Shown here piece after piece: positions 32,534 through 37,233 of a stretch of DNA of 39,740 bases. Below the pieces are notes generated by a model, which was not told where the DNA came from, searched no databases, and saw only the letters and a list, made by a program, of their open reading frames with translations. Origin of the DNA: an uncultured Ectothiorhodospiraceae bacterium (GTDB lineage Bacteria; Pseudomonadota; Gammaproteobacteria; S012-40). The stretch lies in the NCBI GenBank assembly GCA_945787715.1, contig CALZJE010000027.1, positions 1-39,740 of the forward strand. Reading direction: 5' to 3'. Position numbers and translations under genes: made by a program. Positions within the stretch are counted from its first letter, which is position 1; every line of letters begins with the position of its first letter.

Positions 32534-33136
32534 ATGAGCAATCTTAATGACGAAAATGGTGAATATCTATCACAATATTTTAACGCACTAAATCTGCAGG
32601 GCGAAGAATTTAATGCTAAAGAATTTGAAGACTGCACATTCAATGAATGTAACTTAAGTGAAGCCACATTTGTCAAATGTCGATTTATTGATTGCCATTT
32701 TATAAAATGCAATCTTAGCGTCATAAAAATTGATCATACGAAGTTTTCAGAAGTTACTTTTGAAGAGTGCAAGATGGTAGGCATTGATTGGACTACAGCA
32801 TCTTGGCCAAGGTTTGTGCTTCCATCCCCAATTAAGTTTTTCAAATGTATTCTTAGTGACTCCTCTTTTTTCGGGCTTAGCTTGGAAGAAATTATGATTG
32901 AAGACTGTAAAGCGCATGATGTCGATTTTAGAGAAGGTAATTTTAGTGAGGCGAATTTTTCTTATACAGATTTTACAAATAGTATGTTTAGCCAAACCAA
33001 TCTTACAGCTGCGGACTTCTCAGAGGCTCTAAATTACAATATTGATATTTATGCCAATGAAATCAAACGTGCTAAGTTTTGCCGTTACGAAGCAATTAGA
33101 TTGCTTGATAGTATTGGAATTAAGCTGGTGGACTGA
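32534..33136 (+). CDS. Pentapeptide-repeat protein (Qnr/YjbI-like)
   Basis: A 200-residue right-handed beta-helix protein. Repeats of the A(D/N)LXX type run through residues about 25-80 (FEDCTFNECNLSEATFVKC) and 110-165 (DFREGNFSEANFSYTDFTNS). They are interrupted by WTTASWPRF, the kind of loop seen between the two coils of Qnr-type proteins. The end, KRAKFCRYEAIRLLDSIGIKLVD, is the typical C-terminal helix. Qnr and MfpA bind DNA gyrase as DNA mimics; whether this one does is unknown. Confidence 0.88.
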   Translation: MSNLNDENGEYLSQYFNALNLQGEEFNAKEFEDCTFNECNLSEATFVKCRFIDCHFIKCNLSVIKIDHTKFSEVTFEECKMVGIDWTTASWPRFVLPSPIKFFKCILSDSSFFGLSLEEIMIEDCKAHDVDFREGNFSEANFSYTDFTNSMFSQTNLTAADFSEALNYNIDIYANEIKRAKFCRYEAIRLLDSIGIKLVD

Positions 33137-33393: not shown

Positions 33394-34206
33394 ATGACTA
33401 AAGACAAAGCTGTTGCCAGGCCCTTATTAGCAATTCACCGAGGGAAGGAGCCGATACTCGTTAGTGCGATTCACTCTGGGCATGGCTTGCGCCCTGAAGT
33501 GGAGCACATTATTCAATTAGACGAGCAACAGCGATTACGTGAAGAAGATCCATTTACTGATGCCTGGATTTGCATTGCTGACAACTTTATTCTACCCCAA
33601 CGCTCACGCTTTGAAGTCGATTTAAATCGCCCACGTGATCATGCTGTTTATGTAACACCCGAAGACGCATGGGGCCTCGATCTTTGGAAAACTCCACCTA
33701 ACGATACAATCATTGAACATTCGCTAGAAGAATATGATGTTTTTTATCAACAGCTCGGCAATTTACTGGATGAGATGGTGGGTAAATATGGCAAAGTCGC
33801 CGTCTATGATTTACACACCTATAATTTTCGCAGAGATGGAATTCACGCTGAGCCAATGAATCCTCAGGAAAATCCTGAAGTGAATGTCGGCACTGGAACA
33901 ATGGATCGTGAATTCTGGGCTCCAGTGGTCGAAGCATTTATCAAACAACTGCGAAGTTTCGATTACCTGGATCGGCAGTTGGATGTGCGTGAAAATATTA
34001 AATTTAAAGGACGACAGTTTGCACAATGGATACATGCACACTACCCAAAAGATGTCTGCGTTTTATCAATAGAAATTAAAAAATTTTTTATGGATGAGTG
34101 GTCGGGAATGGGAGACCCAGTCGCAATCCAGGCTATTCGGCAAGCGTTAGCAGGCACTCTGAGTGGGGTGAAAGAGGCACTTTTTGAACTAGGTAAAAAT
34201 CGATGA
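33394..34206 (+). CDS. N-formylglutamate amidohydrolase-like enzyme
   Basis: A 270-residue member of the FGase (HutG/N-formylglutamate deformylase) family, zinc-dependent amidohydrolases with a carboxypeptidase-like fold. Conserved blocks are LVSAIHSGHGL, FTDAWICIADNF, SRFEVDLNRPRD, VAVYDLHTYNFRRDG and NIKFKGRQFAQW. No hut genes are nearby, so a role in histidine degradation is unlikely. The stop overlaps the next gene's ATG (ATGA), so it is translationally coupled to the QEGLA metallopeptidase. A tight three-gene operon follows, suggesting a shared amide- or peptide-bond substrate. Confidence 0.88.
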   Translation: MTKDKAVARPLLAIHRGKEPILVSAIHSGHGLRPEVEHIIQLDEQQRLREEDPFTDAWICIADNFILPQRSRFEVDLNRPRDHAVYVTPEDAWGLDLWKTPPNDTIIEHSLEEYDVFYQQLGNLLDEMVGKYGKVAVYDLHTYNFRRDGIHAEPMNPQENPEVNVGTGTMDREFWAPVVEAFIKQLRSFDYLDRQLDVRENIKFKGRQFAQWIHAHYPKDVCVLSIEIKKFFMDEWSGMGDPVAIQAIRQALAGTLSGVKEALFELGKNR

Positions 34207-36089
34207 CCCCCTCAGGAGCCGATGTTAATAAATTCATAGAAATCCTTGCTTGCCACTTTGAAGCGAATAAAGCGACTGATATTGCAACTCAGCATTATCG
34301 TATTCACATCGACCGACAACTTCCGTTTCTGATTTTTTACCGAAAGTGCGATGAAACTAGCCAGGCCACTCTGGATATTCTCAGTACTTTTTCTTCCTAT
34401 ATTCTAATTCCTGCCGATGATCAGTACATTGCTCAAAATAAAAAGCTTATAAACGCAATCGTTGAGCTGCAAAAAAAATATTTTGAAGGCAGTTTGCTTA
34501 TAGAAATTTGGTTTAAACCTCTGAGTCACCCACTAACAAAACAAGGAGAGCCTAAGCCGCAAAAGTTTAGTATCAAGGCTTTTTCTCAAAACCTCTCTCA
34601 TGCAACTTTAGAATCACTTGAAGCAGCTTTGCAACAGATTATTTTACGAAAGCGTAATGCGATTGTTGATGTTAATTATGAGGATTCAATTGCACCGCCG
34701 GGTATCAAAGCGTTATTTGATAACACGCAAAGCGAACCAAAGGTTAGTTTTCTCGGAATTGAAATTGAAGAGATGTATCAAAGCATTGAGTCTGATCAGA
34801 TTTTCCCTTTCGCGATTAAAAAGTTAAAAGATGGCCTGAATAGAGCAATTAAAAAAGCGGTGTATACATTTTCACATGAGAGCACTTTATTCAAACCTGA
34901 AAATTATCATGTGTTGGGGCGACGGTCTTTAACTAAACTTGTTTGGCAGTGTGATAAAGCATTAACAGACATCAGTGAAAGTTTTGATTTGCTGTTACAT
35001 GTTACGCCAGTCAATACCAGCCAAGCATGGAAGGAATTTAAACGTTCTCATTATCAAAAAACACCCATCTTTCATTATCGACCAAGAACTGTCGATCCCT
35101 CACTCTTGAAACGTAAACTTTATAACATTCCTATTGAGGATATTGAAGATCCAGCGCTTAATTCTTTCTTTACTTCAAAGCGCGATGAACTAGATGAGCA
35201 AATCGGCCTGTTACATAAACGCGAATTGTCTCAATTCCTATTTAGTTCGATTCAAATTTTTGGAGTCATCGATAAGGGGCTACTAACGACAGCAAAAAAT
35301 ATTTTGTGTCAACAATCAACAGTTGATCAAATTTATACTTCTGAATTGTTAAGTGCCGATCAGTTTGCCGCACACGCTGAGCAAACAATGGATTATTATC
35401 GAAAAATTGATCCTCAGTTTACAGCGACAGTAACTGTAAGAAACGATATTACTGGTATCTTGGTTTCTCATGGAAATTTTTTAATAGGCACTGATGCACA
35501 GGTATCAAAATCAAGATTAAGTGCTACCTTATCTCATGAAATTGGAACGCATGTATTAACGTATCACAATGGAATCCAACAGCCCTTCAGTCAACTATAT
35601 TCAGGTATGGCGGGATATGAAGAATTACAGGAAGGATTGGCGGTACTTGGTGAATATTTTTCAGATGGCTTAACGCATGATCGATTGGTTATTCTTGCTG
35701 CACGTGTAATTGCAGTTGACAGTATTATCAAGGGTGCAAGTTTTGTTGAAACATACAATGTCTTGACCGATGAATACGGCATTTACCCTCATTCGGCTTT
35801 TTATACGACAATGCGTGTTTATCGTGGCGGTGGATATACCAAAGATATGATCTATTTACGTGGACTACTGCATTTGCTTCAGCTGATTTCAAAAGACATT
35901 GATTTTAATCTGTTATTCACAGGAAAGATATCATTTGAATATTTACCACTGATCGAAGAGTTATACTGGCGAGAAATTATCAAGCCTCCCGTGTTGCTTC
36001 CGCAGTATTTAGCAACGGAATCTGCCCAAAGAAAGATGAGTACTATTAAGAAATCGCCTAAGTTGGATACCATTATGGAGGGTCTGTAA
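34203..36089 (+). CDS. DUF1704 / 'QEGLA motif' metallopeptidase (TIGR02421, MATCAP family)
   Basis: A 628-residue protein annotated in databases as 'flavohemoglobin expression-modulating QEGLA motif protein' (TIGR02421, DUF1704). The zinc motif is H445-E-I-G-T-H450 in LSHEIGTHVL, with Q476-E-G-L-A480 supplying the third ligand Glu477. A large N-terminal region of unknown fold precedes it. Eukaryotic members of the superfamily (MATCAP/KIAA0895L) are carboxypeptidases removing the C-terminal Tyr of alpha-tubulin. It overlaps the amidohydrolase gene by 4 bases and is 3 bases from the ATP-grasp ligase. A C-terminal-tail peptidase is my inference; the bacterial substrate is unknown. Confidence 0.9.
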   Translation: MTPSGADVNKFIEILACHFEANKATDIATQHYRIHIDRQLPFLIFYRKCDETSQATLDILSTFSSYILIPADDQYIAQNKKLINAIVELQKKYFEGSLLIEIWFKPLSHPLTKQGEPKPQKFSIKAFSQNLSHATLESLEAALQQIILRKRNAIVDVNYEDSIAPPGIKALFDNTQSEPKVSFLGIEIEEMYQSIESDQIFPFAIKKLKDGLNRAIKKAVYTFSHESTLFKPENYHVLGRRSLTKLVWQCDKALTDISESFDLLLHVTPVNTSQAWKEFKRSHYQKTPIFHYRPRTVDPSLLKRKLYNIPIEDIEDPALNSFFTSKRDELDEQIGLLHKRELSQFLFSSIQIFGVIDKGLLTTAKNILCQQSTVDQIYTSELLSADQFAAHAEQTMDYYRKIDPQFTATVTVRNDITGILVSHGNFLIGTDAQVSKSRLSATLSHEIGTHVLTYHNGIQQPFSQLYSGMAGYEELQEGLAVLGEYFSDGLTHDRLVILAARVIAVDSIIKGASFVETYNVLTDEYGIYPHSAFYTTMRVYRGGGYTKDMIYLRGLLHLLQLISKDIDFNLLFTGKISFEYLPLIEELYWREIIKPPVLLPQYLATESAQRKMSTIKKSPKLDTIMEGL

Positions 36090-36092
36090 GCC

Positions 36093-37139
36093 ATGAAAAT
36101 TGCTTTTGTGATAAACAATATATTGACTGAATGGCCTGATTACACCACGACGAATCTGGCTTATGAAGCGAAAAAACTTGATCATGAAGTTTGGTATATT
36201 AATGTTAGCGATTTTTCCTACGATTCTGATGAAAATGTTCACGCTAATGCCTATAGTGCAGCACTTGCTGATATGGCGTCATTGACAAGCTTTATTAATT
36301 CCATACGAAATTCAGATAAGAGTAAATATTATATTAACGTAGCAGAGTTAGACGTGTTGATGCTGCGTAATGATCCAGCAGAAGATGCTCAAACGAGGCC
36401 GTGGGCAAGGCTTGCTGGAATTAATTTCTCCCGCTTTGCCATTCTTAAAAATGTTTTAGTACTCAATGATCCTGATGGTTTAAGTAAAGCCATTAACAAA
36501 TTATATTTACAAATTTTCCCAAAGGAAATTCGTCCCGAAACATTAATTACACTGGACAAAAAGCAAATAAAGGAATTTTCTGAAAAATGGGGCGCAATCG
36601 TAATTAAACCTTTAGTTGGTTCTGGCGGACGCAATGTCTTTCTCCTCAGATCAGAAGATAAGCCTAATATGAATCAAATGTTGGAGTCGGTTTCCCGAGA
36701 TGGTTATATCATTGCTCAGGAATATTTGCCAGAAGCAGTGAATGGTGATGTAAGAGTGTTTCTCATGAACGGTGAGCTATTGCAGGTAGATGGTAAAATT
36801 GCTGCGTTTCGCCGTGTACGTGAGAACGGCGATATGCGAAGTAATATGACTGCCGGGGCGACCTCTGCCGCGTATGAAGGATCTTCTGAAAACTTAATTG
36901 ATTTAGCCAATAAAATTTCTCCAATAGTAAAACAAGACGGATTGTTCTTAACTGGGATTGATATGGTTGGTGATAAAATTATGGAAATAAATGTATTTAG
37001 CCCTGGTGGAATAGAGAGCGCCAATAACTTTAATAACGTTAATTATACAGAAGCCATCATTAATAACATTCAAAACAAAGTGGAGCATCATGCTAATTAT
37101 CCTGATTTAAATAATGTTGAATTAGCTTCGCTTGCTTAA
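36093..37139 (+). CDS. GshB-like ATP-grasp ligase
   Basis: A 348-residue ATP-grasp enzyme resembling glutathione synthetase GshB. It has an N-terminal substrate domain (FVINNILTEWPDYTTTNLA) and blocks VIKPLVGSGGRNVFLL (ATP loop), AQEYLPEAVNGDVRVFLMNG, and IDMVGDKIMEINVFSPGGIE (metal-binding Glu/Asn). GshB-type enzymes join an amino acid to a carboxyl phosphate. Some ATP-grasp relatives (RimK, tubulin-tyrosine ligase) extend protein C-termini. Classical gshA is not adjacent, and the tight coupling to a peptidase and an amidohydrolase argues that this may not be the housekeeping glutathione synthetase. Confidence 0.85.
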   Translation: MKIAFVINNILTEWPDYTTTNLAYEAKKLDHEVWYINVSDFSYDSDENVHANAYSAALADMASLTSFINSIRNSDKSKYYINVAELDVLMLRNDPAEDAQTRPWARLAGINFSRFAILKNVLVLNDPDGLSKAINKLYLQIFPKEIRPETLITLDKKQIKEFSEKWGAIVIKPLVGSGGRNVFLLRSEDKPNMNQMLESVSRDGYIIAQEYLPEAVNGDVRVFLMNGELLQVDGKIAAFRRVRENGDMRSNMTAGATSAAYEGSSENLIDLANKISPIVKQDGLFLTGIDMVGDKIMEINVFSPGGIESANNFNNVNYTEAIINNIQNKVEHHANYPDLNNVELASLA

Positions 37140-37144
37140 TGAAA

Positions 37145-37189
37145 ATTCAGGTTTTACTAAACCAGAAAAAATGATGTAGCAACCTGAAT
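37145..37189. repeat. 9-base inverted repeat after the ATP-grasp gene
   Basis: ATTCAGGTT (37145-37153) and AACCTGAAT (37181-37189) are exact reverse complements, enclosing a smaller pairing GGTTT/AAACC. There is no T-run after it, so it is not a clear terminator. It may be a partial terminator or mRNA-end structure. Confidence 0.4.
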
Positions 37190-37233
37190 GGCAAACTAAC
37201 AGAAATATAGTGCCTACATAATAAGGAGATTGA

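Follow-up and report, generated by a model that had tools for sequence, protein, structure and literature searches.

Tubulin and ribosomal protein S6 are known cases in which a ligase and a peptidase act in a cycle on a C-terminus. In humans, TMCPs trim glutamate chains but spare the branch-point glutamate, which is removed by CCP5 (PMC10499314). Here we analysed a 39,740-nucleotide stretch of DNA (the window) from an uncultured Ectothiorhodospiraceae bacterium (contig CALZJE010000027.1, assembly GCA_945787715.1), in which three consecutive genes on the forward strand encode an FGase-type zinc amidohydrolase (33394-34206, 270 aa), a long-form MATCAP peptidase of the DUF1704/QEGLA type (34203-36089, 628 aa) and a GshB-like ATP-grasp ligase (36093-37139, 348 aa). 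As read directly from the sequence, an ATGA stop/start overlap (34203-34206) couples the FGase gene to the MATCAP gene, and 3 bases (36090-36092) separate the latter from the ligase gene. A preliminary description of this DNA had reported the same coupling and had likened the genes to the tubulin tyrosination cycle; the gene layout and the Pfam families were confirmed. Comparison across genomes shows that the trio is a real conserved module, which is usually mislabelled.

Conservation and co-inheritance of the module

MATCAP loci were gathered from two genome draws (369 of the class and 398 of the phylum), relatives, plasmids and genome contigs, and homologues of all three proteins were mapped around each locus. 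The genes FGase-MATCAP-ligase were found in identical order and orientation in 22 of 25 long-form MATCAP loci, ranging from Gammaproteobacteria to Rhizobiales plasmids, including plasmids of Aminobacter, Sinorhizobium and Shinella; Sinorhizobium meliloti pSymB carries the module. The order recurs on the Rhizobiales plasmids at about 32% identity, which together with its frequency among long-form loci places the arrangement far beyond chance. One of the three remaining loci is cut by a contig end (L095), one is without FGase in the stretch read (L144), and in the third (L139, 7158-10110) an AstE/AspA-type deacylase gene (PF24827, 1.2e-36) overlaps the long MATCAP gene in place of FGase, with no ligase nearby. 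Inserted genes separate FGase from MATCAP in two loci (L138 and L143). FGase and MATCAP are fused in 12 loci, e.g. in Photobacterium sp. GJ3 (L031), and the ligase gene lies directly upstream in 10 of the 12; both Pfam domains were detected in a single polypeptide. The neighbourhood comparison proposed in the preliminary description thus bears out the trio as a conserved unit, in the 22 long-form loci and these 10 ligase-fusion loci.

Solo short MATCAPs (about 430 aa) never occurred with FGase or the module ligase among the mapped loci. Two of them are convergent with an adjoining RimK-like ATP-grasp gene (L072, 7948-10149; L073, 4874-7075), possibly a second, independent ligase-MATCAP pairing, and a RimK-like ligase lies near another (L087). 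On a Phyllobacterium zundukense plasmid (L034) the trio is disrupted, with FGase and ligase spread over several frames and MATCAP open but shorter. The trio was not found in viral contigs, and phage records gave one weak partial match.

Phylogenetic trees separated the long and fusion MATCAPs, with one truncated form, from the solo forms (100/100), and the long forms made up one group (100/99). In the ligase tree, trio ligases (99/99), GshB (100/99) and RimK-like proteins were separate, and fusion-associated ligases grouped together (89/92); the root position of this tree is unset, and trio ligases and GshB are separate in the sense of lying on different sides of its branches. Deep branching order was not relied on because of the long branches between groups. 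MATCAP and ligase diverged together beyond species divergence: with GshB divergence taken into account, their distances were still correlated (partial r 0.911 in 15 genomes, 0 of 2000 permutations; partial r 0.495 in the 12 trio genomes only, 3 of 2000). A genome of the window's genus with a fusion-type module (G001) has a GshB 69% identical to that of the window genome, and its MATCAP and ligase are only 30% identical, which points to exchange of the module as a unit. The module seems to move as a whole, and the comparison shows that its three genes are co-inherited as a unit.

Losses were also joint. Three genomes (G710, G690 and G626) have kept a truncated MATCAP and encode the module ligase and FGase nowhere, and another (G116) is without the ligase and has a fused FGase domain that has lost the zinc ligand H141. 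FGase was present in every ligase-bearing genome of this set and, as judged from its residues, intact in all but one (G662). These patterns indicate that loss of the ligase tends to go with loss of an intact FGase.

The three enzymes

The window peptidase was assigned to PF08014 (E 5e-83, 279.5 bits against a gathering threshold of 27) and scored 331.7 against TIGR02421, the source of the QEGLA label, below the cut-off of 338.65. MATCAP is Pfam's present name for PF08014, formerly DUF1704. Among the papers available for searching, none dealt with the function of bacterial DUF1704 proteins. In an AlphaFold2 (AF2) model built from four sequences (mean predicted local distance difference test, pLDDT, 65.5), the C-terminal catalytic domain (aa 265-626, 34995-36080) matched human MATCAP 7z5g with Z 16.6 and a root-mean-square deviation of 4.3 over 284 residues, and 7z6s with Z 16.3. 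The zinc motif HEIGTH (aa 445-450, 35535-35552) and the third zinc-ligand motif QEGLA (aa 476-480, 35628-35642), aligned to human MATCAP EEGLA, stand where the preliminary description had placed them, and the structural comparison that it had suggested gave a true MATCAP fold. Fold and motifs together mark the peptidase as a genuine member of the MATCAP fold whose zinc site is intact, with predicted carboxypeptidase activity. The pattern HE[IVLM]G[TVI]H was found automatically in 34 of 35 long-form and fusion sequences, whereas solo-clade MATCAPs have HE[GA]x[VI]H. Human MATCAP was found at E 2.8e-5 with a profile of module MATCAPs and missed at E 10 with one of solo forms; since each profile comprised four sequences, this ranks relatives within the sample only.

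The N-terminal domain of the same protein (about aa 1-262, 34203-34988) carries the conserved motif HIDRQLPFL. Residues 29-227 of the model matched N-formylglutamate amidohydrolases (2q7s, Z 11.0; 2odf, Z 9.9), followed by M14 carboxypeptidases. Alignment of long-form N-domains by hhalign gave E 2.4e-13 against the FGase portion of the fusions and 7.8e-5 against stand-alone FGases; the former value takes in a shared linker, and the structural match is therefore the cleaner evidence. Segments that hold H27, E51, N78-R79 and H141 in FGase are replaced or missing in the N-domain. With the zinc-ligand segments absent, the long MATCAP contains a degenerate, inactive FGase-fold domain, encoded beside an active FGase gene.

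FGase itself scored 74.7 bits against PF05013 (E 1.5e-20, cut-off 28.9 bits) and 29.9 bits against the HutG equivalog TIGR02017 (cut-off 278.75). A carboxypeptidase-like site was predicted at H27, E51, D76, N78-R79, D139, H141 and E227. In module FGase domains H27, E51, D76, N78 and D139 were present in 34 of 34, R79 and E227 in 32 and H141 in 31. By analogy with M14 enzymes, N78-R79 and E227 may serve in carboxylate binding and catalysis. A sequence search of solved structures with FGase gave chance matches only, e.g. green fluorescent protein. FGase is an M14-like enzyme with its predicted active site intact.

The ligase belongs to PF02955 (GSH-S_ATP, E 1.9e-47), and its best-fitting NCBIfam model was the unassigned subfamily PRK12458 (NF009110, 389.3 bits, cut-off 408). 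It scored below the GshB equivalogs TIGR01380 (200.0 against 299.05) and NF003573 (207 against 272) and below the RimK family TIGR00768 (78.4 against 143.4 bits). The catalytic residues K136, K172, R221, R241, R249, N251, D290, E298 and N300 are kept, and comparison with Escherichia coli GshB showed all ATP and Mg residues in place. Departures from invariant or near-invariant GshB positions occur at N8, YTT 17-19, S177 and SPGG 303-306, presumably on the substrate side. A sequence search of solved structures to E 1 retrieved GshB (1gsa, E 9.4e-33), RimK (E 2.7e-5) and LysX only, with no relatives of TTL, and in the structural ranking, for which alone the ligase model (pLDDT 52.6) was used, GshB (Z 13.2-13.3) preceded RimK (Z 9.5) and TTL was not among the rows. 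A TTL-like ligase has no support in sequence.

Canonical GshB was found above cut-off in 18 of 19 module genomes, with module ligases at 125-238 against the cut-off of 299. The window genome has its GshB elsewhere (C19, 428.5 bits) and also encodes GshA, which rules out the module ligase as its sole glutathione synthase. The preliminary description had allowed that the trio might not be conserved, or that the ligase might be the only glutathione synthetase and cluster with true GshB; neither was found. The ligase is, as judged from its residues and its place in the tree, a catalytically intact GshB/RimK-like enzyme distinct from the glutathione synthase of the cell. Two loci (L062, 2506-3552, and L092) have a second, tandem module ATP-grasp gene whose metal/ATP residues are lost (D290H/E, E298D). 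Both copies belong to one clade and represent a conserved pseudo-ligase, again an inactive partner next to an active one.

Possible function of the module

FGase family members cleave N-acyl-glutamate. That a GshB/RimK-type ligase occurs beside MATCAP and an M14-like hydrolase of N-acyl-glutamate type suggests that the module is perhaps a glutamylation cycle. The ligase would use ATP to attach an amino acid, of which L-glutamate is the most likely, to a free carboxylate in the tail of a peptide or protein. MATCAP would trim ordinary alpha-linked residues off the new end, and FGase would remove the last residue, held by a bond that MATCAP cannot cut. FGase and MATCAP may work as one assembly, in which the inactive domain would hold or pair with the active FGase. 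Such a division of labour would parallel eukaryotic deglutamylation, in which MATCAP/TMCP-type enzymes shorten chains and the M14 enzyme CCP5 takes the branch-point residue. Counted in favour are the single FGase-MATCAP polypeptide of some lineages, the inactive FGase-fold domain on MATCAP in others, and the AstE/AspA deacylase that takes the place of FGase in L139. That the trio is a self-contained make-and-trim module for amides at the carboxyl end of a peptide or protein stands, in our judgement, evenly balanced between true and false. A more specific proposal is rather improbable, namely a salinity-controlled cycle in which the ligase attaches a single residue or a short run of glutamates to a protein C-terminus and a MATCAP/FGase complex takes it off again, with eukaryotic MATCAP descending from the module-type clade and not from solo bacterial forms.

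Expression data bear on the question of salinity. In RNA-seq of Photobacterium damselae at 1% versus 3% NaCl, RS17020 ('GshB') was up 38.4-fold and RS17025 ('QEGLA') 27.5-fold, among the top genes, and RimK was up 52-fold (PMC10308900). Photobacterium sp. GJ3 has the same ligase and fusion pair on a large replicon, which with the adjacent locus tags suggests that the P. damselae genes are the fusion version of the module. Low salinity probably turns the module on in marine Vibrionaceae-type bacteria. The only recurrent fourth gene is an HdfR-like LysR gene, found within about 1.4 kb upstream in 10 of 36 module loci (L031, L032, L137, L138, L140, L141, L144, L148, L149 and L153) and divergent in almost all of them; several of these loci are outside the class. 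The copy in Photobacterium scores above the HdfR equivalog cut-off, and in Vibrionaceae the adjacency may be plain synteny.

Several points weigh against a make-and-trim cycle. The characterised relatives of the ligase and FGase are mostly small-molecule enzymes, and glutamate is proposed as the added residue by family precedent. The AF2 models of MATCAP and ligase are of low confidence. In G662 the ligase is retained beside an FGase that carries N at residue 141, and MATCAP persists in some genomes without ligase and FGase, so it has a role outside the cycle. No conserved neighbour gene or small peptide marking a substrate was found next to the modules, and for P. damselae the architecture of the locus is deduced from its locus tags and by comparison with Photobacterium sp. 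GJ3.

A small-peptide pathway is about equally serious as a glutamylation cycle, although by itself we consider it the less probable side of the question. In such a pathway the ligase would make a gamma-glutamyl or N-acyl di- or tripeptide, glutathione-like or osmoregulated, the hydrolases would prepare its precursor or recycle the product, and no protein would be modified. A small peptide would suit the data as well as a protein C-terminus, since small molecules are the substrates of the closest characterised relatives of ligase and FGase. GshB is the nearest characterised ligase, N-acyl amino acids are substrates of both the FGase and AstE/AspA families, one of which replaces the other in L139, and the salt response of P. 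damselae also agrees with this pathway. However, both hydrolases are of carboxypeptidase type, and protein tails are the substrates of the characterised MATCAPs (PMC10499314).

The presence of graspetide ATP-grasp ligases among the structural matches of the ligase would agree with a ribosomally synthesised and post-translationally modified peptide or other peptide natural product, with the ligase acting on a precursor peptide and the peptidases maturing it. This is very unlikely, as no conserved small open reading frame or exporter lies beside the modules and contexts are otherwise variable; comparison of small frames around 29 modules found no conserved precursor peptide, although very short or divergent ones could escape. 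It is equally hard to credit a redundant glutathione synthase adjoining two general peptidases by chance, for the 'glutathione synthetase' annotation and the full set of GshB ATP/Mg residues are outweighed by the canonical GshB and GshA encoded elsewhere, the separate clade, the changed substrate-side residues (N8, YTT 17-19 and SPGG 303-306), the FGase-MATCAP fusion and the co-inheritance of the module.

Promoter and terminator scans of the window locus gave no signals above shuffles. An inverted repeat, ATTCAGGTT...AACCTGAAT, whose arms enclose a loop of roughly 30 bases, directly follows the ligase gene (37143-37192). Upstream of the trio lies a gene for a pentapeptide-repeat protein that is weakly Qnr-like (32534-33136; 57 bits, cut-off 240).

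Comparison with known systems

New in this analysis are the degenerate FGase-fold domain, devoid of zinc ligands, in the first ~230 residues of the window MATCAP, the likeness of the catalytic half to human MATCAP, the HEIGTH-type motif in the module clade and its absence from solo bacterial forms, and the tendency of ligase and intact FGase to vanish jointly. No bacterial proteins in this sample stand closer to human MATCAP than those of the module, which also holds an inactivated enzyme domain as built-in partner. If the proposed function is true, it would be an undescribed C-terminal ligase-peptidase cycle across Pseudomonadota. The module makes the role of bacterial MATCAPs testable in tractable strains, and it speaks against interpreting 'GshB' hits in RNA-seq, such as the 38-fold induction in P. 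damselae at low salt, as glutathione biology.

The human system of MATCAP/TMCP1 (KIAA0895L) and TMCP2 with TTL/TTLL shares with the module the MATCAP catalytic fold, a HEIGTH...EEGLA-type zinc site and a carboxypeptidase that is paired with an ATP-grasp ligase, the TMCPs acting in the shortening of glutamate chains. The module differs in a ligase that is not detectably TTL-like, in the FGase-fold domain of the bacterial protein and in the absence of tubulin. The parallel with the tubulin cycle drawn in the preliminary description holds for the peptidase, and since the ligase is GshB/RimK-like, its half of the parallel is one of logic, not of descent.

HutG and the AstE/AspA deacylases resemble the module FGase in PF05013 membership and M14-like metal and carboxylate motifs, but unlike HutG it scores far below the equivalog cut-off, has no hut genes nearby and is linked to a ligase and MATCAP. 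The solo 'flavohemoglobin expression-modulating QEGLA motif proteins' of TIGR02421 have the QEGLA motif and catalytic domain in common with the window MATCAP, which falls below their cut-off; they form another clade with HE[GA]x[VI]H for HEIGTH. The ligase has the fold and the ATP and Mg residues of the glutathione synthase GshB, but lies below every GshB equivalog cut-off, in a separate clade, with other substrate-side motifs, and coexists with true GshB. RimK/RimB, which act in glutamylation of ribosomal protein S6, and RloC/RloA likewise consist of an ATP-grasp ligase and its dedicated peptidase. Low-salt induction is shared with RimK, strongly induced in P. damselae (PMC10308900), and Rlo acts in hypo-osmotic stress (PMC12239564). 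Their peptidases are aspartic retropepsins, whereas those of the module are zinc enzymes, and the module ligase falls short of the RimK-family cut-off (78 against 143).

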